Shown in pieces: positions 5,064 to 55,821 of a stretch of DNA of 64,000 bases. The position numbers were made by a program, and so were the translations under genes. The notes under the pieces were generated by a model, which was given only the letters and a program-made list of their open reading frames with translations, did no database searches and had not been told where the DNA came from. This stretch comes from Candidatus Poribacteria bacterium (GTDB lineage Bacteria > Poribacteria > WGA-4E > PCPOR2b), in assembly GCA_022822005.1 (NCBI GenBank), contig JAJECO010000054.1, forward strand, positions 62,001 through 126,000, given 5' to 3'. Every line of letters begins with the position of its first letter. Positions within the stretch are counted from its first letter, which is position 1.

Positions 5064-5130
5064 TTTATGGTGAATTCTAAAAACAGATAGACACTTTCGC
5101 CCCCGGTAGGTGCGGTTTCTAACCGCATCG
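5064..5130 (+). repeat. Dispersed repeat with 37-bp core plus CGGTAGGTGCGG module
   Basis: The 37 bases at 5064-5100 (beginning TTTATGGTGAATTCTA, ending ACACTTTCGC) are identical to the reverse complement of 22922-22958. The first 16 bases recur inverted at 25590-25605. Immediately after it, CCGGTAGGTGCGG and the hairpin TGCGGTTTCTAACCGCA also recur near 22748. The unit occupies most of the 204-bp gap between the PhyH and dipeptidase genes. No reading frame is present. Confidence 0.85.
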
Positions 5131-17662: not shown

Positions 17663-17704
17663 CTGTTCTTAGTCGCCGGGTTGGGAGGCGGCCTGGATCA
17701 AAAT

Positions 17705-18874: not shown

Positions 18875-18913
18875 ATTGAATCTCCTTATTTTTGAGTTAA
18901 AGGGTGTCAGGTC

Positions 18914-18970
18914 TAAGAGGGCACCCACAAGTTGCTTTGAATCCCGATCCATCGGGGGGAGTGCCCCTAC
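18914..18970. repeat. Inter-paralogue repeat copy
   Basis: GGCACCCACAAGTTGCTTTG and ATCCCGATCCATCGGGGGGA end in GTGCCCCTAC. An almost identical unit lies at 20184-20240 upstream of paralogue 2, so it was probably copied together with the gene. The CCGATCCATCGG core is palindromic. Confidence 0.85.
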
Positions 18971-18980
18971 GTTTGGAGGG

Positions 18981-20153: not shown

Positions 20154-20183
20154 ATTGAATCTCCTTCTTTTTAAGTGTTTTCC

Positions 20184-20240
20184 TAAGAGAGCACCCACAA
20201 GTTGCTTTGAATCCCGATCCATCGGGGGTGGTGCCCCTAC
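20184..20240. repeat. Inter-paralogue repeat copy that supplies a stop codon
   Basis: This is the counterpart of 18914-18970. The terminal GTGCCCCTAC, read on the minus strand as GTAGGGGCAC, provides the TAG stop of paralogue 3 at 20237-20239, so the repeat abuts or overlaps the 3' end of that gene. Confidence 0.8.
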
Positions 20241-21406
20241 TCAAAGATCTGAAATTCACCGTTTTGGACAATCAGTGCAATCGGGTCGTAAATCGCATCT
20301 CCGACAACATCAAAAGAGAATTTACCCAGAACGGTGTCTATATCTGTGATGTTCGCTAGGGCGTCTCGAATCGCAGTTGGATCGGTGGATTGGGCATCGA
20401 CGATTGCCTTAGCGAGAATATAAACGGAAGCATACGACTGTGCTGCCCAGATGTCCGGTTCGACGCCGTATGCTACTCGGTAATTCTGAACGAAGGCTTG
20501 GTTTTTTGGTGTATTAGCGGTGTTGACCCAACTGGTAAAAGCAATCGTACCCTCAGCCGCATCACCTGCAGCTTGCACATCGGAGGTGGTCAGCGTATTA
20601 ATAATGAAGGGCACCGAATCGGGTATACCGAGTTGGCGCGCTTGAATCAGAATCTCAGGTTTATCTGGCGGCAACGCGGAAACAAAGATGGCATCCGGAT
20701 TTAGGTTTTTGATACGGGTTAATTGTTCGGCAAAGTCGGCATTACTACTTTGGAAGGTCTCTGTGGTCAGAATCTCGACGTTGTTTGTAGTGAGGGCGTC
20801 CTTCATCACTTCGGCGCCATCCACGGAGAAGAGATCGGTTTCATCATGTATAATCGCTACTTTTTGATAGCCAAGTTTCGCTTGCGTTATCTTGATGCCG
20901 CTTGTAATCAGCACATCTGTGGTGAGAATGGTGCGAAACACAAAATCGCCAATCGCGCTCAGTCCACGGGCGGCGGAGGTGGCGCTTATCGCCACAACTC
21001 CATTTTGTTGTGCAATTGGGAACGCTGCTTCGGTCGCGCTTGAGCTGGCAGGTCCGAGGATAACAGGGACGCCATCTTGGTGGATTAGTTTATTAAAGGC
21101 TTCGATAGCCCCTTCAGCGTTGCCCTGACTGTCTTCGGAAATAATCTTGAGTTTTGTGTCGCTGGATTGTGAGTTATTGATTTCTTGAAGTGCCAGTTCA
21201 AAGCCGTTGCCCATCTCCGCCCCAACTGAAGCGAGTCGTCCGGTAGCGGGATAGACAAGACCGATGGCAATCTCCTCGATAGGCTCGTCCATCTGTGGTG
21301 TTGTGGGGATGAGAAGTTGCCCAATCTGATCACAGGCGGAAAGGCCCACGATGAGCGTAACAATCGCTAAGACAGAGACGGATCTGGTGAAACTTCTAAT
21401 ATTCAA
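20237..21406 (-). CDS. Leu/Ile/Val-type ABC substrate-binding lipoprotein, paralogue 3
   Basis: This 389-aa binding lipoprotein (LSAC, Cys25, then DQIGQLLIP) is closest in its leader to paralogue 1. The body has AIGLVYPATGRLASVG, KLKIISEDSQGNAEG, VILGPASSSATEAAFPIAQQNGVVAISATSAARGL and FSFDVVGDAIYDPIALIVQNGEFQIFE. It appears to start with TTG at 21406 (AAGGAG six nucleotides upstream; no ATG at that point), unlike paralogues 1, 2 and 6. Its TAG stop lies within an intergenic repeat. No permease or ATPase is nearby. Confidence 0.9.
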   Translation of the reverse strand: MNIRSFTRSVSVLAIVTLIVGLSACDQIGQLLIPTTPQMDEPIEEIAIGLVYPATGRLASVGAEMGNGFELALQEINNSQSSDTKLKIISEDSQGNAEGAIEAFNKLIHQDGVPVILGPASSSATEAAFPIAQQNGVVAISATSAARGLSAIGDFVFRTILTTDVLITSGIKITQAKLGYQKVAIIHDETDLFSVDGAEVMKDALTTNNVEILTTETFQSSNADFAEQLTRIKNLNPDAIFVSALPPDKPEILIQARQLGIPDSVPFIINTLTTSDVQAAGDAAEGTIAFTSWVNTANTPKNQAFVQNYRVAYGVEPDIWAAQSYASVYILAKAIVDAQSTDPTAIRDALANITDIDTVLGKFSFDVVGDAIYDPIALIVQNGEFQIFE

Positions 21407-21491
21407 TTGGATCTCCTTACCTTTAGGTTAAAAGGACGTGGCATTGTCTTAGGAGGGGGTGTTCCTACGAATTATGCTGGGATTTAGAGGT

Positions 21492-22667
21492 TTATTTGAA
21501 GATCTGGAATTCGCCGTTTTCGACGATTAGCACAACCGGATCGTAGACGGCATCTCCGACAGCGTTAAAAGAGAATTCGCCCAGAACGGTATCGAAATTT
21601 TTGGTGTCTGTGAGTGCGTCCCGAATCGCGGTTGGGCCGGTGGACTGTGCTTCCGCAATCGCTGAGGCGAGGATGTGGACAGCGGCATACGCCTGCGCGA
21701 CGAAGATATTCGGCTCGATCCCGTATTCCGCGCGATACTTCTGAATGAAGGCTTGATTTCTCGACGTGTCAGCCGTGCTTGCCCACCCTGTAAAGGTGAT
21801 TACGCCCTCGGCGGCATCGCCCGCGGCTTGTATCTCGTCGCTGGGCAGTTCGGGAACAATAAAGGGTACTGAGTCGGGTATGCCGACTTGGCGGCCTTGG
21901 ATCAGAATCGCAGATATATCTGGTGATAAAGCGGATATAAAGATAGCATCAGGATTTGCTTCCTTAATACGAGCCAATTGTGCGATAAAGTCGGTATCGT
22001 CACTGTGAAAGGTTTCAGTGATTAGAACCTTGATGCTGCTATCAGCGAAGGCTGCCCTCGCCACCGTGTCGCTATCGATGGAGTAGAGATCGCTTTCATC
22101 GTATATGGTCGCTACCTGCTGGTAGCTGAGTTTCGCCTGGGTTATTTTGATGCCGCTTGGGATCAGCACATCTGTGGTGAGTGCCGCGCGAAAGACAAAA
22201 TCGCCGATCGCGCTCAGACCCGAAGCACCAGAAGTTGGGCTGAATACGACAACTTCGTTCTGTTGTGCTGTTGGGAAAACTTCCTCAGCTTGACTTGAGA
22301 GTCCGGGCCCTAAGATAACGGGGACACCGGCTTGATGAATCAGTTTATTGAATGCTTCAACGGCACCCTCAACAGTGCCCCGATCGTCCTCGATGATAAA
22401 GGTAATTTTTGCATCACCGGGCCAGGAATCGTTAATATCTTCGCGAGCGAGTTCGAAGCCTTGTTGCATGGGTATATAGCCGTACGTGGCGACGAACCTA
22501 CCTGTCAGCGGCAAGGAAGCGCCGATGCGAATTTCTCCCTTGAGCCCTTCCATTTGCGGTGTTGTGGGAAGCAGAAGCCGCTGGATCTGGTCACAAGCGG
22601 CAAGCCCTACAATGAACACAACAATCGCCCAGACCAGCGCAAATCTGGTGAATCTTCTGATGTTCAA
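21492..22667 (-). CDS. Leu/Ile/Val-type ABC substrate-binding lipoprotein, paralogue 4
   Basis: This 391-aa Peripla_BP_6 lipoprotein (LAAC, Cys25) has a TTG start. Distinct features are RIGASLPLTGRFVATYGYIPMQQ after the core strand and REDINDSWPGDAKITFIIEDDRGT. The end, VYDPVVLIVENGEFQIFK, finishes in Lys rather than Glu. The central clamp region FIVPELPSDEIQAAG differs from that of the other copies. Its upstream gap (22668-23027) is full of dispersed repeats, which probably separate its promoter from paralogue 5. Confidence 0.9.
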   Translation of the reverse strand: MNIRRFTRFALVWAIVVFIVGLAACDQIQRLLLPTTPQMEGLKGEIRIGASLPLTGRFVATYGYIPMQQGFELAREDINDSWPGDAKITFIIEDDRGTVEGAVEAFNKLIHQAGVPVILGPGLSSQAEEVFPTAQQNEVVVFSPTSGASGLSAIGDFVFRAALTTDVLIPSGIKITQAKLSYQQVATIYDESDLYSIDSDTVARAAFADSSIKVLITETFHSDDTDFIAQLARIKEANPDAIFISALSPDISAILIQGRQVGIPDSVPFIVPELPSDEIQAAGDAAEGVITFTGWASTADTSRNQAFIQKYRAEYGIEPNIFVAQAYAAVHILASAIAEAQSTGPTAIRDALTDTKNFDTVLGEFSFNAVGDAVYDPVVLIVENGEFQIFK

Positions 22668-23027
22668 TTGAATTTCCTTGTTTTGAAATTATGGTGGGCC
22701 TTAGAATTAATGGGGCACTCCAAACTGAACCGCATTGCTCCCATGCCCGGTAGGTGCGGTTTCTAACCGCACCGCATCCCGAGGAGTCCCCGATTACATC
22801 CCCGATGAATCGGGACAGGCGGGACTCCGACAAGCCGAGAGCAGGCAGGTCCCGACTCGTCGGGATGCACGTTTCTTAATCCCGATTTATCGGGGGAACG
22901 TCACGGGACAGGACATGAGGAGCGAAAGTGTCTATCTGTTTTTAGAATTCACCATAAAAGGCGTGGTGCAGCCCTAAGTGGGCACCCACGAGGGGTGCCC
23001 CTACGAATTCGGTTAGCGTTTGGAGGG
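22668..23027. repeat. Composite block of dispersed repeats
   Basis: This 360-bp gene-free block contains CCGGTAGGTGCGGTTTCTAA (shared with about 5102), CCCCGATGAATCGGGACAGG (shared with about 12560), AATCCCGATTTATCGGGG (shared with 37466-37483) and the inverted 37-bp unit at 22922-22958 that is identical to 5064-5100. It also has GGCACCCACGAGGGGTGCCCCTAC, a near-palindrome, at 22981-23004. The nesting suggests repeated insertion at one site. Confidence 0.85.
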
Positions 23028-24206
23028 TTACTCGAAGATCTGGAATTCGCCGTTTTCGACAATTTGTATAATTGGTCCGTAAACCGCATCCCCGACATCA
23101 TTAAAAGAAAATGATCCCAAAACGGTGTCGAAATCTTTGGTGTTAGCTAGTGCATCCCGAATTGCGGTTGGATCAATGGATTGGGCTTCTGCAATCGCCG
23201 CGGCGACGATATAGACCGCGGCATATGATTGCGCTGTCCAAGCGTTTGGATCACTCCCGTACGTCGCTCGGTACTTCTGAACGAAGGCTTGATTTCCCGG
23301 CGTATCGGAGGTGCTAATCCAGCCTGCAAAAGAGATTGCCCCTTCGGCGGCAGCCCCTGTATTTTCCACGTCGTTTATCAGGCTAGTGATAAAAGGAACA
23401 TCGGTGGAAATCTCAAGCTGACGACCTTGAATCAGAATCGCAGTCTGCTCCGGGAGTTGTGATGCGATAAAGATAGCATCAGGATCTGCCTCTTTTATCC
23501 GAGACAATTGGGCAGAAAAATTGGGGGCTTCGCTTTCGGAGATCTCTGTGCTTTGGAAGGTTTCTGTGGTCAGAATCTCGACGCCAATCTCAGTAAGCGT
23601 GTCCCTGAACTTTTCATAGCTATCTATGGAGTAAGAATCAGTTTCATCATATATGATTGCCACTTGTTGATAGCCAAGTTTCGCGTGTGTTGCCCTGACA
23701 CCACCGGGGAGCAGGATATCTGTGGTGAGTCCTGCGCGGAAGATAAAATCACCAAGCGCACTTAGACCGGTCGCATTTGAAGAGGAACTAAAAGCCACAA
23801 CCCCATTCTGCTGCGCGATTGGAAACGCTGCTTCGGCTTGGCCTGATGTGGTGGGACCGAAGATAACCGGTACCCCCGCTTGAATCAGTTTATTATAGGC
23901 GTCGACGGCGCCCTCAATGGTACTCTGATCGTCTTCGATGATGAACTTGAATCTTACATCGCCCAGTTGTGAGTTGTTTACCTCCTCAAGAGCGAGTTCA
24001 AAACCGCGTTGTATCGGTAGGGCAAATGCATCAAGCCGTCCAGTGACAGGATAGACAAGGCCAATGGAAATCTCCTCACTGGGTTCTTCCATCTGGGGTG
24101 GTATCGGGACAAGAAGTTGTCCAACCTGGTCACAGGCAGAAAACCCGATAATCAATGCAACAATCGTTAAGACAAAGGCGTATTTGGTCACTCTACTGAT
24201 GTTCAA
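23028..24206 (-). CDS. Leu/Ile/Val-type ABC substrate-binding lipoprotein, paralogue 5
   Basis: This 392-aa binding lipoprotein (FSAC, Cys25) starts with TTG 24206, with GGAGG upstream. It carries a short insertion absent from the others: between FQSTE and NFSAQLSRIKEADP it reads ISESEAP. IFGPTTSGQAEAAFPIAQQNGVVAFSSSSNATGL marks the ligand-facing loop, where SPTS is replaced by SSSS; this loop usually contacts the carboxylate and amine of amino-acid ligands. The end VYGPIIQIVENGEFQIFE is family-typical. It is probably a changed-specificity member of the array. Confidence 0.9.
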   Translation of the reverse strand: MNISRVTKYAFVLTIVALIIGFSACDQVGQLLVPIPPQMEEPSEEISIGLVYPVTGRLDAFALPIQRGFELALEEVNNSQLGDVRFKFIIEDDQSTIEGAVDAYNKLIQAGVPVIFGPTTSGQAEAAFPIAQQNGVVAFSSSSNATGLSALGDFIFRAGLTTDILLPGGVRATHAKLGYQQVAIIYDETDSYSIDSYEKFRDTLTEIGVEILTTETFQSTEISESEAPNFSAQLSRIKEADPDAIFIASQLPEQTAILIQGRQLEISTDVPFITSLINDVENTGAAAEGAISFAGWISTSDTPGNQAFVQKYRATYGSDPNAWTAQSYAAVYIVAAAIAEAQSIDPTAIRDALANTKDFDTVLGSFSFNDVGDAVYGPIIQIVENGEFQIFE

Positions 24207-24242
24207 TTTGAACCTCCTTATTTTTTATTCTATTGTTGAGGG

Positions 24243-25415
24243 TTACTCGAAGATTTCCAACTGACCATCTTTCACAATCAATATCTTCGGATCGTAAACA
24301 GCATCTCCGACCGCGTTAAAAGAGAATTTTCCGAAAACGGTATCAAAGTCTGTGATGCTTGTTAGTGCGTCTCGAATTGCGATTGAATCGGTGGATTGCG
24401 CATCGGCGATTGCTTTAGCCAAAATATGGAAAGCGGCATAAGACCGTGCTGCGTAGTTGCCCGGTTCCATCCCGTATTTCTCAGTATAGTTCTGGACGAA
24501 GGCTTGATTTCCCGGTGTGTCAGCTACACTTGCCCAACCGACAAAAGTGATTGCCCCTTCGGCGGCATCACCCGCGGCTTGTACATCGGCTATGGTCAAC
24601 GTGCGCATAACAAACGGCACTGAGTTGGGTATACCGAGTTGACGACCTTGGGTCAGAATCCCAGGTTTTTCAGGCGATAAAGAAGAGATAAAAATAACAT
24701 CCGGATTTACGTCCCTAATCCAGGTTAATTGTGTGGAAAAGTCGGTATCACCACCTTGGAACGTCTCTGTGGTCAACACCTTGACACCGTTCTCAGCGAG
24801 CGCGTCCCTCACCGCTTGGTCACTATCCGTGGAGAAGACATCGTTTTCATCATACATCGTTGCTGCTGTTTTATAGCCGAGTTTTGCAGAAGTTGTCTCA
24901 ATACCGCTCGGAATGAGCACATCTGTGGTAAGAGCAGCGCGAAAAACAAAGTCACCAATTGCACTCAGTCCACGGGCCGCGGAGGTAGGGCTAAAAGCGA
25001 CGACCCCATTTTCTTGCGCTATCGGAAACGCCGCCTCGGCTGCACTTGAGGTCGCGGGTCCCAAAATAACAGGTATGCCGTCCTGCTGAATCAGTTTATT
25101 GTAGGCTTCGACCGCACCTTCAGGAGTGCTCTGATCATCCTCTATAATAAACTTGATGCTTCTCCCTCCAAGTTGTGAATTGTTAATCTCTTCGAGAGCC
25201 AACTCAAGACCAGTGCCTATTGGTACGCCAAATGTAGCGGCGAGTCGTCCTGTGATAGGCAAGACGACACCGATAGGAATTTCTACGCTCACATCTTCCG
25301 TATCAGATGGAGCGGGGACGAGCAATTGTCCAATCTGGTCACAGGCGGAAAGCCCCACTATCAGGAAGATAATCGCTAATGCAAACACAAATATTGTAAT
25401 TCGTCTGATTTCCAT
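24243..25415 (-). CDS. Leu/Ile/Val-type ABC substrate-binding lipoprotein, paralogue 6
   Basis: This 390-aa lipoprotein (LSAC, Cys25, DQIGQLLVPAPSD) starts at ATG 25415 with AAGGGAG six nucleotides upstream; a longer in-frame reading to 25469 lies in intergenic DNA. Landmarks are IPIGVVLPITGRLAATFG, KFIIEDDQSTPEGAVEAYNKLIQQ, ILGPATSSAAEAAFPIAQENGVVAFSPTSAARGL and the terminal VYDPKILIVKDGQLEIFE. The ending DGQLEIFE differs from the DGEFQIFE of most copies. No transport partner is adjacent. Confidence 0.9.
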   Translation of the reverse strand: MEIRRITIFVFALAIIFLIVGLSACDQIGQLLVPAPSDTEDVSVEIPIGVVLPITGRLAATFGVPIGTGLELALEEINNSQLGGRSIKFIIEDDQSTPEGAVEAYNKLIQQDGIPVILGPATSSAAEAAFPIAQENGVVAFSPTSAARGLSAIGDFVFRAALTTDVLIPSGIETTSAKLGYKTAATMYDENDVFSTDSDQAVRDALAENGVKVLTTETFQGGDTDFSTQLTWIRDVNPDVIFISSLSPEKPGILTQGRQLGIPNSVPFVMRTLTIADVQAAGDAAEGAITFVGWASVADTPGNQAFVQNYTEKYGMEPGNYAARSYAAFHILAKAIADAQSTDSIAIRDALTSITDFDTVFGKFSFNAVGDAVYDPKILIVKDGQLEIFE

Positions 25416-25469
25416 CTTAAACTCCCTTGTTTTTATAGTGAACGATATAAATATGTAGACGTTCACCAA

Positions 25470-25793
25470 TAGTGCCCCTTATCGAAGCCTCATCAAGTCC
25501 CCCTGACAAGTTTCCCCCCTGACAAGGGGGGCGAGGGGGGTTTGGGGATTTAGGGGGTTGGTTGTGTGCCAAAGGTGTATAAGTAATTATAGAATTCACC
25601 ATAAATAAAAAAATCAGGCAAGGGACAATCGAGAGGTACTGTCCCTCACTTGATTCGTTGAGTATTGGTATTTGGAAGGTTATCGAAAAATTCGTCTAAA
25701 TTTAAAATCTAAGTTTTAGAAAACAACGATTGTTGTTCTCTGCAAGATACAGAATTCCAATTCTGCTGAATTGTTCCGATCCTTCGTTGAGGA
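25470..25793. repeat. Gene-free gap with CCCCCTGACAAGGGGG repeats
   Basis: AAGTCCCCCTGACAAG and CCCCCCTGACAAGGGGGG, followed by TTTAGGGGGTTGGTTGTG (25495-25566), match 2263-2302. TAGAATTCACCATAAA (25590-25605) is the inverted 16-bp end of the repeat at 5064. CAGAATTCCAATTCTG (25750-25765) is a perfect palindrome after paralogue 7. There is no gene. Confidence 0.8.
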
Positions 25794-26963
25794 TTATTCG
25801 AAAACTGCAAATTCACCATCTTTGACAATCAATATCTGCGGGTCGTAGACAGCATCTCCGACAGCATCAAAAGAGAATTGTCCTAAAATGGTGTTCATAT
25901 TTGTAGTATTCGCTAGTGCGTCGCGAATCGATGCCGAATCCGTGGATTGTGCCGTCGCGATCGCCGCGGCGAGAATATGGAGTGTGGCATACGATTGCGC
26001 TGCCCAAGCGTTCGGCTGCATCCCGTATGTCTCGGTATAACTCTGGATGAAAGCTGCATTTCCTGGGGTAGCTGCGAGGCTAGACCACCCTATAAAGGTG
26101 ATTACCCCCTCCGCGGCATTGCCCGCAGCTGCTACCTGTTCTATTGCTATTTCGGGAATAATAAAGGGAACAGAATCAGGTATACCGAGTTCGCGACCTT
26201 GCGTCAGAATCAGAGGCATCTCCGGTGGCAACGTAGCGACAAAGATGGCTTCAGGATTTGCCTCCATTATCCGGGTTAATTGCGTGGAAAAGTCGGTGTC
26301 GCCGCTTTGGAACGTTTCCGTAGTCACAACCTCAACACCGTTCTCAGCAAGTGAGGGGATGAACCCCGCGTAGCTGCTTATGGAATAAAGGTCACTTTCA
26401 TCAAATAAGATTGCAGCTTTTGTATAGCCGAGTTTCCCTTGAGTGATTCTAACGCCACTTGGAATCAGGACATCTATGGTGAGCCCCGCGCGGAAGATAA
26501 AATCGCCAATCGTGCTCAGGCCGGAGGCGGAGGAAACCGAGCTAAAAGCCACGACTCCATTTTCTTGTGCAATTGGAAACGCATGTATCGCCTGATCTGA
26601 GATGGCGAGACCGGTAATAGCAGACACGCCATCCTGATGAATCAGTTTATTGAAGGCTTCGACGGCGCTCTCACTCTGGTCGTCCTCAGTGATGAAGGTA
26701 ATCTTTGCGTCGCCGAGCATTCCTGAGTTGTTAATCTCTTCGCGCGCGAGTTCAAAGCCGGTGTGCATGGGGATACCAATCTCGTTGGCGAATCGCCCGG
26801 TCAGCGCAACAACGACTCCGATGGGAATCTCTCCACTGAGTCCGTCCATCTGAGGCGGGGCAGGGACGGGAAGTTGTCCGATCTGATCGCAGGCAGAAAG
26901 GTACGCAATCAGCGTGACGATTGCCAGTATAAATAGGAGTCTCGTGGGCCGTTGGGTTTTCAA
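25794..26963 (-). CDS. Leu/Ile/Val-type ABC substrate-binding lipoprotein, paralogue 7
   Basis: This 389-aa binding lipoprotein (LSAC, Cys25, DQIGQLPVP) starts with TTG 26963, with AAGGAG six nucleotides upstream. It is the most divergent full copy: VVVALTGRFANEIGIPMHTG, a shortened EDDQSESAVEAFNKLIHQ, AITGLAISDQAIHAFPIAQENGVVAFSSVSSASGL, and the end VYDPQILIVKDGEFAVFE. It is first in transcription order and lies next to the decayed eighth copy. A repeat-rich gap of 324 bp follows it. Confidence 0.9.
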   Translation of the reverse strand: MKTQRPTRLLFILAIVTLIAYLSACDQIGQLPVPAPPQMDGLSGEIPIGVVVALTGRFANEIGIPMHTGFELAREEINNSGMLGDAKITFITEDDQSESAVEAFNKLIHQDGVSAITGLAISDQAIHAFPIAQENGVVAFSSVSSASGLSTIGDFIFRAGLTIDVLIPSGVRITQGKLGYTKAAILFDESDLYSISSYAGFIPSLAENGVEVVTTETFQSGDTDFSTQLTRIMEANPEAIFVATLPPEMPLILTQGRELGIPDSVPFIIPEIAIEQVAAAGNAAEGVITFIGWSSLAATPGNAAFIQSYTETYGMQPNAWAAQSYATLHILAAAIATAQSTDSASIRDALANTTNMNTILGQFSFDAVGDAVYDPQILIVKDGEFAVFE

Positions 26964-27109
26964 TTAAATCTCCTTAATGCAAAAAAGTATTTGTGGGTGA
27001 CGTTTTTCCCTGTGGCATCGTGGTATGAAAAATTTGGTTGTCTATTTTTCCACAGATTATAGTCGTTGTCAAACTAAAAAACGCTGAATAGATGACTACC
27101 CGAAGACCT

Positions 27110-27262
27110 GTAGTTGAGCCAATAGCCACAACCTGATTTTCTTGTGCAATAGGAAAAGCCCCTTTAGTTATACTTGAGGGCGTAGGACCAAAAATAGCAG
27201 ACACACTACCTTGATGAATCAGTTTATTGAGTGCTCCAACACTGCGCTCTATGGTGCTCCGA
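27110..27262 (-). pseudogene. Fragment of an eighth binding-protein copy
   Basis: Translated on the minus strand, this stretch reads SVGALNKLIHQGSVSAIFGP, then SSITKGAFPIAQENQVVAIGST. It aligns with the GAVxAxNKLIxxxGVxxIxGPxxSxxxxAFPIAQxNxVVAxSxTS segment of the seven paralogues. Homology stops abruptly on both sides, with no signal peptide before it and unrelated sequence after it. The array was therefore once at least eight genes long. Confidence 0.85.
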
Positions 27263-37845: not shown

Positions 37846-38661
37846 TCAAGTTTCCAAAATCGACGTTTGGGTGTTGGGATACGAATTAGGCCTCGAATCA
37901 GAAGAAAGTGGCACGACAACCAATTGTCCGCTCGAAAGTTGCATCACTTCAAAGGGTACATCGTAGACCGCCTCCAACTGTTGCGCTGTAAAAATGAATT
38001 CGGGAGTTCCAACAGCGATAGGGTTTCCTTCCCGCAACATGAGCACCTGATCTGCGTACATTGACGCTAGATTTAGGTCGTGAATTGCGGCAATGACCGT
38101 TCTTCCGGACTGCGCGATCGACTGGCACAAGCGGAGAGTTTGGACCTGATGTCGAGGGTCGAGATGATTTGTCGGTTCGTCCAACAGGAATATCCTCGGT
38201 TCTTGTGCAAGGATACGGGCAAGATCAACGCGAGACGCCTCGCCACCCGACAGTGTTGGATAAAGGCGTTCAGCGAACATCTCGGCTTGCACCTGTTTCA
38301 TCGCTTCCTGTGCAATTACTAAATCTGTGGCGCTTTCTTTCGCGCCGTTGAGGTGTGGATGACGGCCGAGCAGGACAATCTCCGAGGCACGGAATGGGAA
38401 GTTGACATCTCGTTTCTGTTGGAGATAAGCGCGTTTCCGAGCCAATTCTCTTGGTGGATACTCGCTGATCGATTCGCCGAAAAATCGGATCCACCCGGTT
38501 GTCGGTGCAAGTTCGCCGGAGATAAGGCGTAAGAGTGTCGATTTGCCCGCGCCATTTGGTCCGACGAAAATCCAAAACTGTCCCGCTTCAATTTTCAGGT
38601 CAATGTTGCGGACAAGCCATTTCTGACCGATGCGATACCCAACCCGTTCCAATTCAACCAT
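37846..38661 (-). CDS. hmuV: Heme ABC transporter ATP-binding protein HmuV
   Basis: This 271-aa ABC ATPase of the FecE/HmuV group drives hemin import through HmuU. Walker A is VGPNGAGKSTLLRL, the signature LSGGEASRVDLARIL, and Walker B FLLDEPTNHLD. The Q-loop is in YLQQKRDVNFPF and the switch His in VIAAIHDLNLA. It overlaps the end of hmuU by 8 nt, so translation is coupled. HmuV rather than a ferrichrome or B12 ATPase is preferred because of the neighbouring HmuY and PepSY genes; the fold itself does not separate these. It is the last gene of the heme locus. Confidence 0.9.
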   Translation of the reverse strand: MVELERVGYRIGQKWLVRNIDLKIEAGQFWIFVGPNGAGKSTLLRLISGELAPTTGWIRFFGESISEYPPRELARKRAYLQQKRDVNFPFRASEIVLLGRHPHLNGAKESATDLVIAQEAMKQVQAEMFAERLYPTLSGGEASRVDLARILAQEPRIFLLDEPTNHLDPRHQVQTLRLCQSIAQSGRTVIAAIHDLNLASMYADQVLMLREGNPIAVGTPEFIFTAQQLEAVYDVPFEVMQLSSGQLVVVPLSSDSRPNSYPNTQTSILET

Positions 38662-39652
38662 ACACCACCTCTTTCTTGAATCTCATCAACAGCCACAGGA
38701 AAAATGGTCCCCCAAGCAACGCAGTGACAACACCGACGGGCAGTTCGGCGGGGACTGCAACGGTTCGGGCAAAAAGATCTGCCAAAACAAGTAGGATTGC
38801 ACCTCCCAACGCTGAACCGGGCAACAGATACCGGTGATCGGCACCGCCCATGAGACGGAGTAGATGCGGTACGACGAGTCCTACGAAACCGATGCCACCC
38901 GCCGCTGACACGGCGGCACCAACGGTCAACGCTACCCCAAAGATTGCCCATCTCTTCAATGATTCGGTCGAAACACCGAGATGGTACGCCTCCGATTCAC
39001 CCAAGCTCATCGCGTTGAGCGCACGAGCGAGACGGAACAACACGACTGCTCCGATGGTTGCAATTGGAAGCGTGACGGTAACTACGCGCCATGTTGCTCC
39101 TCCGAAGCCGCCGAGCAGCCAGAAGGTAAGGCTTCGAAGTTGTTCTTCGTCGGCGAGGAATGTCATCAAGCCGATGCCTGCACCAGCAAAGCTATTGAGT
39201 GCTATCCCGGCGAGTAGGAGAGTTACGGTGAGAACCTGTCCTTGCGTTTGAGCGATTTTCCAGACGCCAATCGTCACGAGCACTCCTCCGGTGAATGCTG
39301 CGACCGGTACGCCCCAGATACTCAAAAATCCGCCGCCGATTAGCACAATCCAGATTGCTGCGCCGAGGCCTGCGCCCGCCGTTACCCCGATTAACCCGGG
39401 ATCCGCCAGTGGATTGCGGAAGATGCCCTGCAGGGTCGCACCGGAGATGGCTAAAACCGATCCGACGATTGCGGATAAGAGAACACGAGGAAATCGGACA
39501 TAGAGGAGGACTTCAAACCCATCTTTATGGAAAAGCAGTATGTGGGGGATATGCCACGGCAGGATCTGATATGCTCCTACACCCGCTGCGACGCAAAGCG
39601 AAATTGGGAGTGAAATACCGAGGATAAGAAGGATTTTGGCTCGATTTGGCAC
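38654..39652 (-). CDS. hmuU: Heme/iron-complex ABC permease HmuU (FecCD family)
   Basis: This 332-aa permease has about ten membrane helices of the FecCD/BtuC family. Typical motifs are RFPRVLLSAIVGSVLAISGATLQGIFRNPLADPGLIGVTAGAGLGA, split over helices 2-3, and GGIGFVGLVVPHLLRLMGGADHRYLLPGSALGGA near the C-terminus, which contacts the ATPase. The start appears to be GTG 39652 (MPNRAKILLIL). The gene lies 51 nt after hmuT and overlaps hmuV. Confidence 0.9.
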   Translation of the reverse strand: MPNRAKILLILGISLPISLCVAAGVGAYQILPWHIPHILLFHKDGFEVLLYVRFPRVLLSAIVGSVLAISGATLQGIFRNPLADPGLIGVTAGAGLGAAIWIVLIGGGFLSIWGVPVAAFTGGVLVTIGVWKIAQTQGQVLTVTLLLAGIALNSFAGAGIGLMTFLADEEQLRSLTFWLLGGFGGATWRVVTVTLPIATIGAVVLFRLARALNAMSLGESEAYHLGVSTESLKRWAIFGVALTVGAAVSAAGGIGFVGLVVPHLLRLMGGADHRYLLPGSALGGAILLVLADLFARTVAVPAELPVGVVTALLGGPFFLWLLMRFKKEVVYG

Positions 39653-39703
39653 TATTCACCGATCGCTACACAATGCGTTATGATTGGTTGTAAACTGGGG
39701 AGG

Positions 39704-40621
39704 TTATTCCCCCTTTGCAATGAAATGTCCCTCAGATTCATAGATGCCGCGAAATAGATCGAGGGCGGCTTTGCCACAACGGGGACCAAATCCCGACAGA
39801 TACAATCCATCCATAGCAACCACTCGCTTATTCCGCCCTGCGGGTGTTTGTGCCAAACCGGGGACTTTAAGCAGCCCTTCGACGCCACCGATCGATTTCA
39901 ATCCTGATTCAAACAGTACGTACACATCCGGCTGCGCGGCGATAACTGCCTCCGCTGTCATCGGCTTAGTGCCTTTGATTTCTCCTGCGGCATTGGCTGC
40001 GCCGACGAGTTCAAGCATCGCGCCAGGACCCGAATCTGTGCCGAGAACAAAGGCGGTTTGTGGTCCTCTTAGGTAGAGAAACAACGCTTTGAGTTTTGCT
40101 AGATTCTGTTGATCAGTGAGTTTTGATTTTAGCGTTTCGATGTCCTTATCTAAGGTTGAGATTAATGCAGTTGCTTGTTCCTCGCGACCCACCGCCTTCC
40201 CGATTATGCGGAGACGTTGCTTGGCTTCGTCAAAAGTTCTCGGTTCTTTAAACAGCATCACTGTTACGCCCGCCATGCGTAGCTGCTCGATGACTTGAGG
40301 TGGTTTCACGTCCGATCGCCCAATCACCAGCGTTGGTTTCAAGGAAAGGATACCCTCAGCGTTGAGCCGGTACTGATACCCGACCGACGGTAACGTCTCT
40401 TTGGCATGTTTTGGATAGGTGGAAGAGGCATCGCAGCCGACAACATTTGCACCTATATCGAGTGCAAAGAGAATCTCAGTAATGCTGCCGTTGAGGGAAA
40501 CGATGCGCTCGGCTGAGTGAATAATAATAGTTTCGCCGCTCGCGTCGGTTACCTCGACAGGTTGCGCTATGGCGATTGATGCAGCCAGACAGAACAGTAT
40601 TGCGAGTTGTTGTATTTTCAT
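39704..40621 (-). CDS. hmuT: Hemin ABC transporter substrate-binding protein HmuT
   Basis: This 305-aa periplasmic binding protein of the BtuF/HmuT group has a cleavable signal peptide ending AASIAIAQ. The opening IIIHSAERIVSLNGSITEILFALDIGANVVGCDASSTYP, taken in parts, carries the S-L-x-x-x-x-T-E-I-L-x-x-L signature and the conserved YP-like turn. GTKPMTAEAVIAAQPDVYVLFE is the second-domain strand. In heme-binding HmuT a Tyr or His binds the iron; I cannot place it from sequence alone. ATG 40621 has AAGGAG seven nucleotides upstream; an upstream in-frame extension covers the intergenic hairpin and is rejected. Transcription into this gene must pass the terminator-like hairpin at 40682-40719. 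Confidence 0.88.
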   Translation of the reverse strand: MKIQQLAILFCLAASIAIAQPVEVTDASGETIIIHSAERIVSLNGSITEILFALDIGANVVGCDASSTYPKHAKETLPSVGYQYRLNAEGILSLKPTLVIGRSDVKPPQVIEQLRMAGVTVMLFKEPRTFDEAKQRLRIIGKAVGREEQATALISTLDKDIETLKSKLTDQQNLAKLKALFLYLRGPQTAFVLGTDSGPGAMLELVGAANAAGEIKGTKPMTAEAVIAAQPDVYVLFESGLKSIGGVEGLLKVPGLAQTPAGRNKRVVAMDGLYLSGFGPRCGKAALDLFRGIYESEGHFIAKGE

Positions 40622-40681
40622 TGTTGGCTCCTTGTGTTGGAAACGGAACATTGAAATTGGTCGCTTATGTCAGGAGAAGAT

Positions 40682-40719
40682 AAAAAGAAACCGAGTTTCT
40701 TCTGGAAAAACTCGGTTTC
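40682..40719 (-). terminator. Intrinsic terminator/attenuator between hmuY and hmuT
   Basis: GAAACCGAGTTT (40687-40698) and AAACTCGGTTTC (40708-40719) form a perfect 12-bp stem with a 9-nt loop. On the minus strand the stem is followed by TTTTTA. It sits after hmuY and before hmuT in the direction of transcription, so it would let hmuTUV be expressed at a lower level than the receptor genes. The stem sequence belongs to the dispersed ACCGAGTTT family. Confidence 0.8.
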
Positions 40720-40771
40720 TTCCGGAGAGGTAGGAGACACAGCAGCCTCTCGCAGCAGCACGAATTATTCG

Positions 40772-41446
40772 TCAGAAATTGCGGCTTCCATCGGGCTGAT
40801 GGATGTATTCAAAGGTTATAAAACCGCCATCCTTTCTGTTTTCATTGTCTTTGTAGTAGCCGATGAAGTGCACCTTCGCAAATGTACCATCCGCCGCTTG
40901 AATCACAAACACCCGTTGCTCCAGTGGCAAAACCCAATGATTGGGTGGTCCGGTGTAGATATACCACCCCTCCTCACTCGCTGCAACGATAGCGAGATTC
41001 GCGTCTGAATCGGCGGCGTACCCATCTGCGGGTGCTTCTTTCACCCCTTCTAACTCCACATCTTTGAGCATCACAGCAGCGCCCTTTCCTGGGCCACTTA
41101 TACCGCCATTGAGTTTCACCTTCGTCCTTTGGAATCCGAGATCCCAATCCATTGAATTAAGTGGATCTGCAACTTCAACGGTATCGCCTGTGGTGAAGGA
41201 GAAATACGCCCATGCCTCTCTGCTGGTAGCATCAATGGTGAAGCTGATAACATCGAGTTGTGGTGTGACTTCGGCGGGAGATTGATTAGTCGATGGTAGG
41301 GTTGTATCTGTGGGAGGTTGTTCCGTAAGCGGTTGCTCAAGTGTCTCGTCGTCATCATTACCGCAACCGGTAAACAGAACAGTCCCAATAAACAGAATTG
41401 ACCAGATAATGAGTCGCCAAGTAGCGAACTTTCTAAAGGTTTTCAT
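40772..41446 (-). CDS. hmuY: HmuY family heme-binding lipoprotein
   Basis: This 224-aa lipoprotein (lipobox VLFTGC, then NDDDE acidic linker) has a HmuY-type domain: REAWAYFSFTTGDTV, MDWDLGFQRTKVKLNGGISGPGKGAAV and KVHFIGYYKDNENRKDGGFITFEY. HmuY hemophores, described in Porphyromonas, take heme from host or environmental proteins and pass it to the TonB receptor. The heme ligands of P. gingivalis HmuY are two His; here candidate axial residues are not obvious (NHWVLP offers one His), so ligand chemistry may differ. AGGAGG lies five nucleotides before the ATG. The position between receptor and ABC genes fits the role. Confidence 0.85.
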   Translation of the reverse strand: MKTFRKFATWRLIIWSILFIGTVLFTGCGNDDDETLEQPLTEQPPTDTTLPSTNQSPAEVTPQLDVISFTIDATSREAWAYFSFTTGDTVEVADPLNSMDWDLGFQRTKVKLNGGISGPGKGAAVMLKDVELEGVKEAPADGYAADSDANLAIVAASEEGWYIYTGPPNHWVLPLEQRVFVIQAADGTFAKVHFIGYYKDNENRKDGGFITFEYIHQPDGSRNF

Positions 41447-41479
41447 TATATCCTCCTACTGAGTACTTGAAATGATGGG

Positions 41480-41695
41480 TTAGACAGTGATCGGCTGATC
41501 CCTGTCGTTTAAAGACTTTGTGTTTTCTTCGTTGATGGTCAACATAGCTTCAGCGATAGTGCCGGCAACTTGGTAGAAATCTTCTGGAGGCATCGCAATA
41601 TCGATACCCCGGTATTTGAAGTGAATGTGCCCCTCAAGGCATTGGTAGACAGCGCATATGTTGTTGCTTGACAAAGACTCTTTTGTGTAATTCAT
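41480..41695 (-). CDS. Small conserved-looking protein in the heme operon
   Basis: This 71-aa protein has no recognised family. It has ICAVYQCLEGHIHFKYRGID, with Cys, His and aromatic residues, then AMPPEDFYQVAGTIAEAML, an amphipathic helix. No signal peptide or membrane segment is present, so it should be cytoplasmic. AAAGGA lies seven nucleotides before the ATG, and it is 33 nt upstream of hmuY, which supports it as a real gene. The Cys/His/Tyr cluster could bind heme or iron, but this is only a suggestion from context. Confidence 0.65.
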   Translation of the reverse strand: MNYTKESLSSNNICAVYQCLEGHIHFKYRGIDIAMPPEDFYQVAGTIAEAMLTINEENTKSLNDRDQPITV

Positions 41696-41748
41696 TTGGT
41701 TTCCTTTCTTGATAGGGTTCAGTGATGTAGGAAAGAATCAACTTTCTA

Positions 41749-42255
41749 TTACCACTGGAAGGATGCGTATAGAAATAGTAGGATTGAAAAACAGGTGATT
41801 GAGACATAAGCCGACTTTCTTCCACGTCGGCATAGTGCAAATCGGACGAACAGCTGCAGCAGATAGACCAACCACACACAACGCGCGACTGATATTTGTT
41901 GCTCCCAATCGCTGTGATAATTGTTGTGCAATAGAAAAGCGGTTAGCAATCCGAAGCCCGACAGTGAGACACCAATGATCACACTCTGATAGCAGAATGT
42001 GTCTAAGCGCTCAAGTGCCGGCAGGTGGTAAAATGCCAATAGAAATCGTTTCTGTTTAAGCTGGACCTCTTGGAAGAGGTAAACTAATGATGACGCACAC
42101 GCACATGCAAAAGCACCAGCTGCGAGCAGAAGTGCCTGTGAATACAACAACAGGCATAACCGTTGCAATAGGGGCGTGAATGACATCAACGTCCCAGTGA
42201 AAAGTATCGAAGTAAAACCGACTACCCCTAAGAGATGTGCTCTGCTGAGTTCCAT
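41749..42255 (-). CDS. Small membrane protein resembling a truncated CcsA/HemX
   Basis: This 168-aa protein has four to five predicted membrane helices. The middle, LPALERLDTFCYQSVIIGVSLSGFGLL, and the end, RGRKSAYVSITCFSILLFLYASF, follow the pattern of CcsA/HemX cytochrome-c-assembly proteins (L-D-x-x-x-Y-R-x-I-x-x-G-F and R-G-R-x-A-A-Y-x-x-x-x-G-F). The Trp-rich heme-handling WWD segment expected between them is missing; only a short DWEQ remains. The protein is half the normal length. It may be a derived heme-channel component serving this heme locus. The ribosome site is weak (GAAGAAAAG). It lies downstream of the structured intergenic element at 42314-42384. Confidence 0.6.
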   Translation of the reverse strand: MELSRAHLLGVVGFTSILFTGTLMSFTPLLQRLCLLLYSQALLLAAGAFACACASSLVYLFQEVQLKQKRFLLAFYHLPALERLDTFCYQSVIIGVSLSGFGLLTAFLLHNNYHSDWEQQISVARCVWLVYLLQLFVRFALCRRGRKSAYVSITCFSILLFLYASFQW

Positions 42256-42313
42256 CTTTTCTTCTATTGGCGCGATTGATTGTTAGGGTTCTCACACTCG
42301 GCTCCTAACCAGA

Positions 42314-42384
42314 GCCTAAGGTTGATTAATCGACAGGCTTTCTCCACCCTATGAGAGAAATCCTGTGGTCGTGTGACAGTCCTT
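42314..42384 (-). ncRNA. Two-hairpin intergenic RNA element, copy 1
   Basis: On the minus strand, directly after the receptor stop codon, TTTCTC and GAGAAA pair around TCATAGGGTG (42360-42339). GCCT and AGGC then enclose GTCGATTAATCAACCTT (42338-42314). Copy 2 at 44466-44540 has the same loop, but the stems read CTTCTC/GAGAAG and GCTT/AAGC. One base pair in each stem has changed on both sides, as expected for a conserved paired structure. The element may set mRNA processing, stability or readthrough between receptor and downstream genes. Confidence 0.55.
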
Positions 42385-44307
42385 TCAATAAGTCAATGAG
42401 AGTCCGCCATAAAATGACCGCCCGGTAAAGGTGTAAAAGGTTGGAATTTTGAAGTCGAAGATGTTATTAACACCGACAGAGGCTTTGAGCCATTTGAGAA
42501 TTTGCTTTGACCCCCGAAGATTCCAGATCCAGTTGCTCGGCGCGTACTCTTCATCCTCAAGGACATTGTCGCCGTCGTCGAAGAATCCCCACCTGCTGGC
42601 ATAACGCCCGCGCAGATCTACGTTGAAACCAGCGCCTTGGTTAGCGTAGGCAAGTTTGAGGTTGCCGCTATGTTTTGACCGATTGAGCAGTGTCAGCCCT
42701 GTCTCCTTATCCTCACCGTTGAGATGTGCGTAGCCGATTGTTGCGGAGAAACCCCCGATTGAACGGGTGGAAAGCTCAACCTCAACCCCTTCGGTGAATG
42801 CTTCGCTGACGTTGAAATATTGAAATTTACTTCCACCGAGTACGCTCTGCCCGATCCGCTCTGTCTCGATCAGGTTTTGCAGGTTGTTTCGATACAGATG
42901 TACCCGTCCGAGTAGTGCGGATCTAAACCGATATTCAACGCCAAAATTCCAATTACCCGATGACTCCGGTTGTAGATCTGGGTTTCCAAGCACCTGATAG
43001 CCGGAGGTCGGATTGCTGAAATCGAGGTAGAGGTCTTTAAAGTCAGGCGCACGAAAGCCTTGACCAAAGGAGGTCCGGATCGTGACATCAGGGGTCACGC
43101 GATACATCCCGCTCAACTTCGGGCTGAAGTGTGTTCCAAATTCGGAGTGATAGTCCAGTCTTCCGCCCAAGACGAATGCAAGGTTTGCCATCGGTCGAAA
43201 TTCGTTTTGGAAGAAGAGTGAATCGGTTGTAATCTCCCGCTCGCCGCCTGTAATGCGTTGCGATTCAAGATTTTCAAAGATTAACTCCGCACCAACGGTC
43301 AGTTGATTCTTCGATCCGAGGGCGGTATCAAATTGTGCTTCGCCTTTTATCAGGTCTTGAATCGTCACGTTCGATGATGCGGTAAGGGAGGTGCCACGGT
43401 CAATAACCGTTGATTCATCGCGGTAGCGTGTGGTGTATATCTTGCCCACCAACTTTGAGCGCGAGCCGAGTTGGTATCCTGTGCCGACGCTTCCACTGAA
43501 GTTGTCGATATCACCGAGGCGGTCAAAGATGACACCCTCTCTTTCGCTGACACCTTCCTGCTTTTGAGCAAAATACTGTCCCGAAAATAGTAGAGTCGAT
43601 TTTGGGGTCAGTTGATACTCAGTTCGTGCGGAATGGGTCCAGTTCTGATAGCCATCAATTGTTGTCGTTAGATCTGACTCATCTAAGTCGATTGGATTTC
43701 GACGGTTTGCTGCAAGGGTCAACAGCGCGTTGAGCTTGGCGCGGTTCAATTCAACTGTGGTGCGGCTGTCGATGGTATTGTGAGTCTCAAGGTTGTTGGT
43801 AAATTGAGCAGCAAATGGGGACGATGCGCTGCGCGTGATGACGTTGATTACGCCGCCCATCGCAGCACTGCCAAAGAGCGCGGAGGAGGCACCTTTAACA
43901 ATCTCGATTCGCTCAACGTTTTCGACCGCAATCCGTGCGAGATCGATTTTGCCAGCGATTCGACCGACTTGGGGTTCGCCATCGAGCAGAATCAGGATGT
44001 AATCCGAATCGAGCCCCTGTAATTGAACCCCGTCGCCGTGGGCATCGCGATCAACGACGATTCCCACCCGATGTTCAAGCACCTCGCCGATGTTTTCTGC
44101 GCCCGTTGCTTCGATCTCACTGCGTGTGATGACCTCTGTGATAACGGGTGTGTCTTTCAATCGACGTTCGGTTTTTGTGCCAGTGATGACCACTTCATCC
44201 ATCTGAAAGAGGTCAGTTTTTAACTCTGTTGCAGCGAAACTTAACCTCGCTCCACCGACCATGAGGATAGCGAAGAATCCTATCCAAAGTCGTTTATGTG
44301 AGTGCAT
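42385..44307 (-). CDS. TonB-dependent heme/siderophore receptor (HmuR-like)
   Basis: This 640-aa outer-membrane receptor has a signal peptide ending GGARLSFAA. The TonB-box-like DEVVITGTK lies near residue 30. The plug has LKDTPVITEVITRSEIEATGAENIGEVLEHRVGI and IEIVKGASSALFGSAAMGGVINVITR, split here for reading. The barrel has the NPDLQPESSGNWNFGVEYRF segment common in BtuB/HemR-like receptors. The C-terminal strand ends GGLSLTY. Neighbours (PepSY, HmuY, HmuTUV) argue for heme as substrate. ATG 44307 has AAAGGAG eight nucleotides upstream; a longer frame to 44412 crosses an inverted repeat and is rejected. It would need TonB/ExbBD from elsewhere. Confidence 0.92.
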   Translation of the reverse strand: MHSHKRLWIGFFAILMVGGARLSFAATELKTDLFQMDEVVITGTKTERRLKDTPVITEVITRSEIEATGAENIGEVLEHRVGIVVDRDAHGDGVQLQGLDSDYILILLDGEPQVGRIAGKIDLARIAVENVERIEIVKGASSALFGSAAMGGVINVITRSASSPFAAQFTNNLETHNTIDSRTTVELNRAKLNALLTLAANRRNPIDLDESDLTTTIDGYQNWTHSARTEYQLTPKSTLLFSGQYFAQKQEGVSEREGVIFDRLGDIDNFSGSVGTGYQLGSRSKLVGKIYTTRYRDESTVIDRGTSLTASSNVTIQDLIKGEAQFDTALGSKNQLTVGAELIFENLESQRITGGEREITTDSLFFQNEFRPMANLAFVLGGRLDYHSEFGTHFSPKLSGMYRVTPDVTIRTSFGQGFRAPDFKDLYLDFSNPTSGYQVLGNPDLQPESSGNWNFGVEYRFRSALLGRVHLYRNNLQNLIETERIGQSVLGGSKFQYFNVSEAFTEGVEVELSTRSIGGFSATIGYAHLNGEDKETGLTLLNRSKHSGNLKLAYANQGAGFNVDLRGRYASRWGFFDDGDNVLEDEEYAPSNWIWNLRGSKQILKWLKASVGVNNIFDFKIPTFYTFTGRSFYGGLSLTY

Positions 44308-44370
44308 GAATTTGCTCCTTTCTGTGTAATGATTCTGACAATCTGTGCACGATTGATTGTTGTGTAACGC

Positions 44371-44415
44371 GTCATGCGTAACGGGAGGCAAATGTTTTTT
44401 TGCGTTACGCATGAC
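44371..44415. repeat. 13-bp inverted repeat in the receptor leader
   Basis: GTCATGCGTAACG (44371-44383) and CGTTACGCATGAC (44403-44415) are perfect inverted copies around a 19-nt loop containing TTTTTTT. It lies about 65 nt upstream of the receptor start and could fold in the mRNA leader or bind a dimeric regulator. Confidence 0.7.
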
Positions 44416-44463
44416 TTGCTACACCAGGCTCCCGCGCTTGATTCCTCACCCCAACAAGCTGGA

Positions 44464-44588
44464 GAGCTTAGGGTTGATTATCATCAAGCCTTCTCCACCC
44501 TATGAGAGAAGGTCTGTGGTCATTTAGCATCCCCTTCAATGGGTCGAACAAGCAGGGGCTGCCCTAAGATGACCGCTCAATAAGTCGA
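44464..44588 (-). other. Two-hairpin element copy 2 behind a decayed receptor 3' end
   Basis: Bases 44466-44540 repeat the two-hairpin element of 42314-42384 with compensatory stem changes (CTTCTC/GAGAAG at 44511-44490, GCTT/AAGC at 44489-44466). Just before it, GAGCGGTCATCTTAGGGC aligns with GGGCGGTCATTTTATGGC, the codons for the receptor's last residues, but is interrupted by TAG. The block therefore looks like a leftover of an old duplication of the receptor 3' end with its downstream element, lying between the PepSY gene and the present receptor gene. Confidence 0.6.
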
Positions 44589-45302
44589 TTAGAAAGTTCG
44601 CCAAACAAAGAAGATTGCAAGGGTCAGTGATCCGAAACCGAGCCCCGCGGCGAATAGACGGGGACCGTGAAGTCGCGTCCAGAGCAGTATCCCGGTAAGC
44701 GAGAGGATGATTAAGCTGCCAGCGATCGAATCGGCGAGAAGAATCCACGCGGTCCCCACTCCGCTTGCCATGTGCAGACGGTTGAGAAATGCAAAGACAT
44801 TTCGATCAAACCGTGTGACGCTGGCGTAACTGTTGCCTACCCAATAGTCCGCGCTGTAGGTACGTTGTGGGTTACTGAAGCTAACACGCCATTTTTCAGG
44901 CTGGACCACTGACTGCCCATCCCAGCTAATTTCTTGTGGCGGCTCTGAACGCGCACGGCTCCACTTCTTCTCGATATCCAGTTCGACTTGAAGCCACATT
45001 GCAAAATCCTCGACGCTTTCCGGTCGAACTTCTGGTAGCGCAAGCTCAATCTTTGTCCGTTCGGTTTTAGCGGCGTTAATCTTCATGACGCCTCGATGGT
45101 TGAGTAAAATCCCGGTGATGCCGAAGAGAATACCCAACGTTGCACCCCAGAGTCCAAGCCAAGCGTGTGTTCGACGCAACCATTTGAGAAAGGCACCCCG
45201 GCTCCACGACGTTGGCAGAAAGGCGTAGGGCGAGCGACGTTTGTCCTGTTTTTTCTGTTTTTTCTCTATGGTTGTTGGAGGTGAACTTGTGTTATCTTGC
45301 AC
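44589..45302 (-). CDS. PepSY-associated transmembrane protein
   Basis: This 237-aa inner-membrane protein of the PepSY_TM (PiuB-like) group is often found in iron and heme uptake loci, where it is thought to help ferric reduction or heme release. RRTHAWLGLWGATLGILFGITGILLNHR is the first helix with its conserved His. LNRLHMASGVGTAWILLADSIAGSLIILSLTGILLWTR is the second pair, and a last helix ends FFVWRTF. The open frame extends to 45536, but that part translates the promoter and conserved leader. GTG 45302 has AAAAGGGAGG five nucleotides upstream and is chosen. It is the first gene of the heme operon. Confidence 0.85.
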   Translation of the reverse strand: MQDNTSSPPTTIEKKQKKQDKRRSPYAFLPTSWSRGAFLKWLRRTHAWLGLWGATLGILFGITGILLNHRGVMKINAAKTERTKIELALPEVRPESVEDFAMWLQVELDIEKKWSRARSEPPQEISWDGQSVVQPEKWRVSFSNPQRTYSADYWVGNSYASVTRFDRNVFAFLNRLHMASGVGTAWILLADSIAGSLIILSLTGILLWTRLHGPRLFAAGLGFGSLTLAIFFVWRTF

Positions 45303-45389
45303 CTTAGCCTCCCTTTTACGTGCACTACGTTTTCTCGAGGGTTGCACAGCCACTGGTCCATTTCTAATCAGTGCAGAAAAAGCGTGGAC

Positions 45390-45486
45390 GCAAAAAAGCC
45401 CCAATACATCAAGTCGATAGAGATATGGGAGATAGCTAACAATTGGCCGTTGGGAGCAGTCCCTTTTTCTATCGTTCGCCTTTTCT
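45390..45486 (-). ncRNA. Conserved iron-locus leader or small RNA, copy 1
   Basis: These 97 bases match 55670-55767 with one substitution and one base of length difference in an A-run, while surrounding DNA is much less similar. On the minus strand the block starts AGAAAAGGCGAACG about 10 nt after the Fur-like core. It contains the small hairpin GGGA/TCCC, whose loop is CTGC here and CAGC in copy 2. It ends in a partly paired CCCATA...TATTGGGGC stem followed by TTTTTT. This layout fits an iron-regulated small RNA or an attenuating leader. No start codon with a ribosome site is conserved inside it. Confidence 0.5.
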
Positions 45487-45492
45487 TTTTTA

Positions 45493-45523
45493 ATAATGAG
45501 TCTCAATATCAATAATCGTGCAA
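45493..45523 (-). promoter_or_regulatory. Putative Fur-type operator and promoter of the heme operon
   Basis: On the minus strand, TTGCAC (45523-45518) is followed after 12 nt by TGAGACTCA (45505-45497). The wider sequence GATATTGAGACTCATTATT matches the classical 19-bp Fur consensus GATAATGATAATCATTATC at 15 positions. It precedes the conserved leader and the PepSY gene. The same arrangement is found at 55795-55821 and 62438-62463. Confidence 0.68.
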
Positions 45524-55484: not shown

Positions 55485-55669
55485 TATCTAAATCCTTATC
55501 AATATGGGCTAACAAAATGCTCATGCGTGCCAAAGATGTGCTCCAGTCTATAATTGCTGTAAGAAAGATATAAGGCGGACGGCATCTGTCCTGCTTTACG
55601 TGAACTGAATTTCCTTGACAATCGCAAATCGAGTGACTTATTCTTATAAATGCAGAAAGGGCGATGGGC

Positions 55670-55767
55670 GCAAAAAAAGCCCCAATACATCAAGTCGATA
55701 GAGATATGGGAGATAGCTAACAATTGGCCGTTGGGAGCTGTCCCTTTTTCTATCGTTCGCCTTTTCT
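55670..55767 (-). ncRNA. Conserved iron-locus leader or small RNA, copy 2
   Basis: This is the near-identical partner of 45390-45486, starting 27 nt downstream of the Fur-like core and ending GGGGC with TTTTTTT. Weak similarity continues for about 30 nt beyond the T-run (GCG, CGC, TTTCTGCA). The 98-nt core is therefore the conserved part of a longer ancestral duplication. It precedes the lipoprotein-FecA operon by about 190 nt. Confidence 0.5.
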
Positions 55768-55794
55768 GTTATTCAACCTTCGATTTAATAAAAA

Positions 55795-55821
55795 TGAGTC
55801 TCAGTCTCAATAGGTATTCAA
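55795..55821 (-). promoter_or_regulatory. Putative Fur-type operator and promoter of the FecA operon
   Basis: On the minus strand TTGAAT (55821-55816), 12 nt, then TGAGACTCA (55803-55795), with an overlapping extra ATTGAGACTGA half-site. The wider GAGACTGAGACTCATTTTT matches the 19-bp Fur consensus at 13 positions. AATAAAATTG just upstream is shared with the heme promoter. Confidence 0.62.

Follow-up and report, generated by a model that had tools for sequence, protein, structure and literature searches.

We identified a structured RNA element, specific to one genus of Candidatus Poribacteria, two copies of which flank the cistron for a TonB-dependent receptor in a heme-uptake operon. The window (the whole stretch of DNA that was analysed, 64,000 nt) comes from a Candidatus Poribacteria bacterium; Poribacteria MAGs are largely those of sponge symbionts. 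The operon runs in the order PepSY_TM, element copy B, TonB receptor, element copy A, Cytochrom_C_asm, HmuY, Peripla_BP_2, FecCD and ABC ATPase. The preliminary description had been of a structured element between genes of a heme operon, and the neighbours PepSY_TM, TonB receptor, Cytochrom_C_asm, HmuY, Peripla_BP_2, FecCD and ABC ATPase support that setting. The operon comprises:

44589..45302, minus strand: PepSY_TM gene, with start codon GTG at 45302 inferred from the Shine-Dalgarno sequence GGGAGG and from relatives
44427..44521, minus strand: element copy B, downstream of the PepSY gene and upstream of the TonB receptor gene
42385..44307, minus strand: TonB-dependent heme receptor gene, bracketed by element copies A and B, with its stop codon at 42385
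42300..42370, minus strand: element copy A, in the gap from the receptor stop codon at 42385 to the start of the following gene at 42255
37846..42255, minus strand: remainder of the operon 3' of the receptor (Cytochrom_C_asm to ABC ATPase)
41749-42255, minus strand: Cytochrom_C_asm gene (cytochrome-c-assembly-like), start 42255, next after the receptor
40772-41446, minus strand: HmuY gene of the heme operon
39704-40651, minus strand: Peripla_BP_2 gene (periplasmic binding protein) of the heme operon
38654-39652, minus strand: FecCD permease gene of the heme operon
37846-38661, minus strand: ABC ATPase gene of the heme operon

The PepSY open reading frame as listed (315 aa) has a TTG start at 45536, inside and upstream of the leader RNA R2 described below, and the GTG at 45302 is the likelier start. 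Viral contigs scanned with the PepSY protein gave no match.

Two related copies had been claimed at these places, and we recovered both on the minus (sense) strand, flanking the heme TonB-receptor gene. The common loop TCATAGGGTG and the linker (G)ACCACAG are present in copies A and B, as previously noted. The match between the copies has E = 4.9e-11, and a 22-nt hairpin pattern allowing up to 3 mismatches occurred 2 times in the window, with 0 occurrences expected. Copy A begins 14 nt past the stop codon of the receptor and folds into a first hairpin (H1) plus a residual second hairpin (H2). Sequence searches, together with the covariance-model search in relatives that had been suggested, yielded 7 copies, which came from 4 genomes of a single Candidatus Poribacteria genus; every one occupies one of the two positions beside the receptor gene. 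G000 (the window's genome), G003 and G004 contributed two each, and G005, with a contig that stops short of site A, contributed one. The same searches found no copy elsewhere in 85 genomes of the phylum, and two genomes of the same genus (G001 and G002) carry neither the receptor nor the element. No Rfam match at gathering scores was obtained in the window, and up to E = 10 the element had only implausible matches.

The structural parts of the two copies are:

42333..42366, minus strand: H1 of copy A, arms ACAGGATTTCTCT / GGAGAAAGCCTGT
44485..44516, minus strand: H1 of copy B
42300..42316, minus strand: H2 of copy A, shortened by an internal deletion, with GGCTC/GAGCC kept
44427..44468, minus strand: H2 of copy B, the real second hairpin
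42317..42322, minus strand: tail ACCTTA of copy A, a possible pseudoknot partner of the loop TAGGGT (42346-42351), not significant alone
44469..44474, minus strand: tail ACCCTA of copy B, a possible pseudoknot partner of the loop TAGGGT (44497-44502)

The structure was compared across 7 related sequences from 4 genomes. H1 has 11-13 bp and a loop of 8-10 nt (alignment columns 17-27/38-48, extendable to 16-28/37-49), H2 has up to 14 bp (columns 66-79/94-107), and the linker between them may pair back to the loop. Broken pairing in more copies had been named as the finding that would speak against a structure; the 5 further copies mostly keep the pairing, with H1 paired in 71/77 cells (92%) and H2 in 82/90 cells (91%), and with 2 and 4 pairs, respectively, changed on both sides. 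In a scan of all possible helices H1 scored 83.5, and none of 200 column shuffles exceeded 69.5; H2 scored 64.0, as compared with at most 57.5 for the second-best helix in these shuffles. Both hairpins were also predicted unprompted by RNAalifold, with a small covariation term (-0.57), and some shuffles equalled the observed counts. In single copies H1 plus H2 is not the minimum-energy fold, other folds being more stable; single-strand folding z-scores are modest (-1.2 and -1.3), and alternative helices compete with H1 and H2. Taken comparatively, the evidence indicates that H1 and H2 are real structures, of an ordinary kind and found in one genus, with a putative function.

The stem change from TTTCTC/GAGAAA to CTTCTC/GAGAAG, reported at the outset as compensatory, is real and converts a U-A to a C-G pair (columns 22/43 of alignment A3). 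For the second reported change, GCCT/AGGC to GCTT/AAGC, the letters are correct, but the helix they were thought to form (columns 43-48 with 64-69) is at chance level, with a score of 42.0, where the best helix of shuffled alignments averages 43.5, and it competes with the base of H1 and with that of the real second hairpin. We therefore rejected it as the second hairpin: the number of hairpins had been given correctly, but the second had been misplaced, and the real one lies 3' of it and extends beyond the stretches then assigned to the copies. With regard to strand, non-Watson-Crick cells read in the sense were G·U in 26 cases and A·C in 4 (nominal p 6e-5, for sequences that are non-independent), which argues that the structure is that of RNA read with the operon and disfavours an antisense RNA or a DNA palindrome for H1 and H2.

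The TAGGGT/ACCCTA pairing of loop and tail is kept in 97.6% of cells and hardly varies; as a pseudoknot it scores 52.5, below the 95% level of the shuffles (55.0). A leader peptide that reads ATG-ACC-ACA and ends in the H1 loop was also considered. Copy A of the window's genome no longer has the ATG, and in G005 the frame runs on, so that this short peptide is probably due to chance.

A further hairpin accompanies the element at one of its sites in the window:

44361..44423, minus strand: hairpin 3, a long palindrome that follows copy B; conservation is 94% across 5 copies from the genus

Hairpin 3 lies directly 3' of H2 in every B copy and also in copy A of G004, and it includes one two-sided change (A-T to G-C, in G003). 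It was not found beyond the element loci in the search for further copies. Its invariant loop GCCTCCC is exactly complementary to the PepSY Shine-Dalgarno sequence GGGAGGC near 45310, which may be due to chance. Elsewhere in the window, positions 17700-27250 contain at least 7 tandem copies, 65-80% alike, of a unit of ~1.25-1.55 kb, which are probably related coding genes in a tandem array, and a 40-nt inverted repeat (5064-5103 and 22919-22958) has arms that are 98% complementary and 17.8 kb apart.

The origin of the element can be traced by what stands upstream of copy B:

44549..44578, minus strand: what is left, in decayed form, of the final ~14 codons of a TonB receptor gene, upstream of copy B; weak here and clear in G003, G004 and G005

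The match to the receptor 3' end upstream of the B copies scored 46 in G003 (shuffles at most 22), 61 in G004 and 33 in G005. In the window's genome the short local alignment to the receptor 3' end scored 24, and a longer alignment shows the remnant. This remnant suggests that the element originated 3' of the receptor gene, in its flank, and was then duplicated; most likely it arose as that flank and was copied upstream together with the last ~14 codons. The simplest route would be a tandem duplication of the receptor, after which the first gene was lost. Elsewhere in the order, several genomes have a receptor that starts no more than ~25 nt past the PepSY stop codon, or one that follows an ABM gene. 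The tree does not separate A and B copies and is without resolution for dating the duplication, and this non-separation fits gene conversion or a lack of signal. The element can be viewed as a putative example of an RNA structure moved by gene duplication.

The window also contains two copies of a second RNA, for which a separate, order-wide model (R2) was built:

45373..45488, minus strand: R2 leader RNA copy that heads the heme operon
55652..55770, minus strand: R2 leader RNA copy with an ABM gene on one side and a second iron TonB operon on the other

R2 (~115-190 nt) is present in 31/85 Poribacteria genomes, all of one order (loci L019-L035 and L091-L120). Its fold includes the closing stem CAGAAAA.GC/GC.TTTTCTG and an inner stem whose tip, GCUCCCAACKGCCAAUUGUUAGC, is near-invariant. 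Across 23 sequences the inner stem showed 30 two-sided cells against a shuffled mean of 10.0, a count that 0/500 shuffles reached, and its covariation score was 0.204 against 0.095. In the diverged copies of G002 and G005 the whole stem is replaced by GTCACATAGGAA/TTCCTAGGTGAC. Wherever inspected, R2 stands at heme or iron TonB loci, once ahead of an ABC-Fur-ABM-TonB-HmuY cluster, and no Rfam match to it was found. R2 could be a candidate riboswitch or an iron-regulated leader; it is better supported and wider spread than the genus element, and of the two it makes the better candidate sensor for the heme operon. The phrases heme riboswitch, heme-responsive riboswitch and heme-sensing riboswitch were not found in the open-access literature searched, and R2 makes heme or iron sensing by RNA in these bacteria a testable question. 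Palindromes stand just upstream of both R2 RNAs (45491-45508 and 55787-55812, minus strand: TATTGAGACTCATTATTA; TATTGAGACTGAGACTCATTTTTATT), which we take to be Fur-box-like. We rejected the idea that the genus element is itself a diverged R2, there being no likeness by eye and the two models finding separate places. A pairing of the H2 loop GTTGGGG with the R2 loop UCCCAAC was likewise dropped, because it is broken in the B copies of G004 and G005 and in copy A of the window's genome.

We propose that the genus element is an intercistronic element that stabilises or processes mRNA, acting in cis on the polycistronic transcript and akin to the stem-loops of selective RNA processing and stabilisation (SRPS); we rate the chances of this function as about even. 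The hairpins would block exonucleases and/or mark processing ends, and the receptor segment would thereby be stabilised or set apart from its neighbours. Our computation supports the location, structure, strand, duplication and genus restriction of the element; an effect on mRNA decay or processing is what we infer. A role as terminator or promoter was discarded: no terminator- or promoter-like site was found in the elements, nor was the GC-rich hairpin with a U-run of an intrinsic terminator. The TonB Shine-Dalgarno sequence is 53-80% unpaired in predicted folds. The position of the element could set the level of the receptor apart from that of the rest of the heme operon, and for an uncultured phylum in which RNA biology is sparse it adds an RNA structure backed by covariation.

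It is also possible, albeit improbable in our assessment, that the element is a decaying by-product, once functional or merely a palindromic 3' flank of the receptor gene, with copy B functionless and copy A eroding. The receptor remnant at copy B is what such a history would leave behind, and copy B is only slightly above the identity of fourfold-degenerate sites, with the G003-G004 pair excepted. In copy A of the window's genome, hairpins 2 and 3 are mostly gone, and the whole element is therefore not strictly needed at that site. Conservation of copy A exceeds that of fourfold-degenerate sites (e.g., 0.82 vs. 0.59 between G003 and G004), a point in favour of the proposed stabilising or processing element. 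Against decay, pairing is kept in both copies despite their divergence, two-sided changes in the B copies included, and hairpin 3 is conserved to the degree given above. We consider it very unlikely that the element acts at the level of DNA, as a protein-binding palindrome (operator) or as a mobile or dispersed repeat. Hairpin 3 as a long and nearly invariant palindrome, together with the short palindrome-like TTGATGATAATCAA in the H1-H2 linker of copy B, would suit an operator; the preference for G·U over A·C in one strand does not. A dispersed repeat or mobile element of the REP/BIME kind would be expected in many copies, but the genome holds only 2, at one locus, as is also the case for hairpin 3. 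Beyond the 7 copies at the two receptor sites none was found in the 85 genomes, and local duplication together with flanking coding sequence accounts for the two.

A regulatory RNA acting in cis, similar to an attenuator or riboswitch, in which the loop-tail pseudoknot and competing helices would switch the gene downstream according to a signal from heme, iron or a protein, seems doubtful to us. The well-kept TAGGGT/ACCCTA pairing, the helices that compete with H1 and H2, and the position of the copies upstream of two heme-related genes are consistent with such a switch. Nonetheless, the pseudoknot alone varies little and does not rise above the shuffles. Among riboswitch features the element has this possible pseudoknot, whereas a terminator, clear sequestration of a Shine-Dalgarno sequence and an Rfam match were not found, and among the 85 genomes of the phylum it occurs in one genus only. 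A broader and rather unlikely scenario would place the heme operon under two unreported RNA families on one transcript, with R2 as a heme or iron riboswitch and the genus element, possibly pseudoknotted, giving receptor-specific control.

Read as a stabilising or processing element, the structure can be compared with known systems. The known setting of SRPS is stem-loops at cistron ends inside operons, just after the stop codon (PMC4423207, PMC8219983), and copy A is likewise a stem-loop directly 3' of a cistron inside an operon. As in the SRPS examples of these sources, the stem-loop closes off a selected cistron, within an operon whose genes are functionally linked and whose products may be needed in unequal amounts, here an outer-membrane receptor and a transporter (PMC4423207, PMC8219983). 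What these sources describe is SRPS in Clostridium, not in Poribacteria (PMC4423207, PMC8219983). Unlike in SRPS, two related copies bracket one cistron here, and the sequences of loop and linker are conserved besides the stems. The REP/BIME elements of enterobacteria are also intercistronic palindromes, whose hairpins are able to protect upstream mRNA; REP elements are dispersed in many copies, whereas the hairpins described here are intercistronic in the same way but occur in 2 copies at one locus. Finally, riboswitches of the preQ1-I and SAM-II types form H-type pseudoknots, which our element resembles in that its hairpin loop is complementary to a tail a short way 3' of it, and from which it differs in being without an Rfam match or a visible expression platform and in its restriction to one genus.
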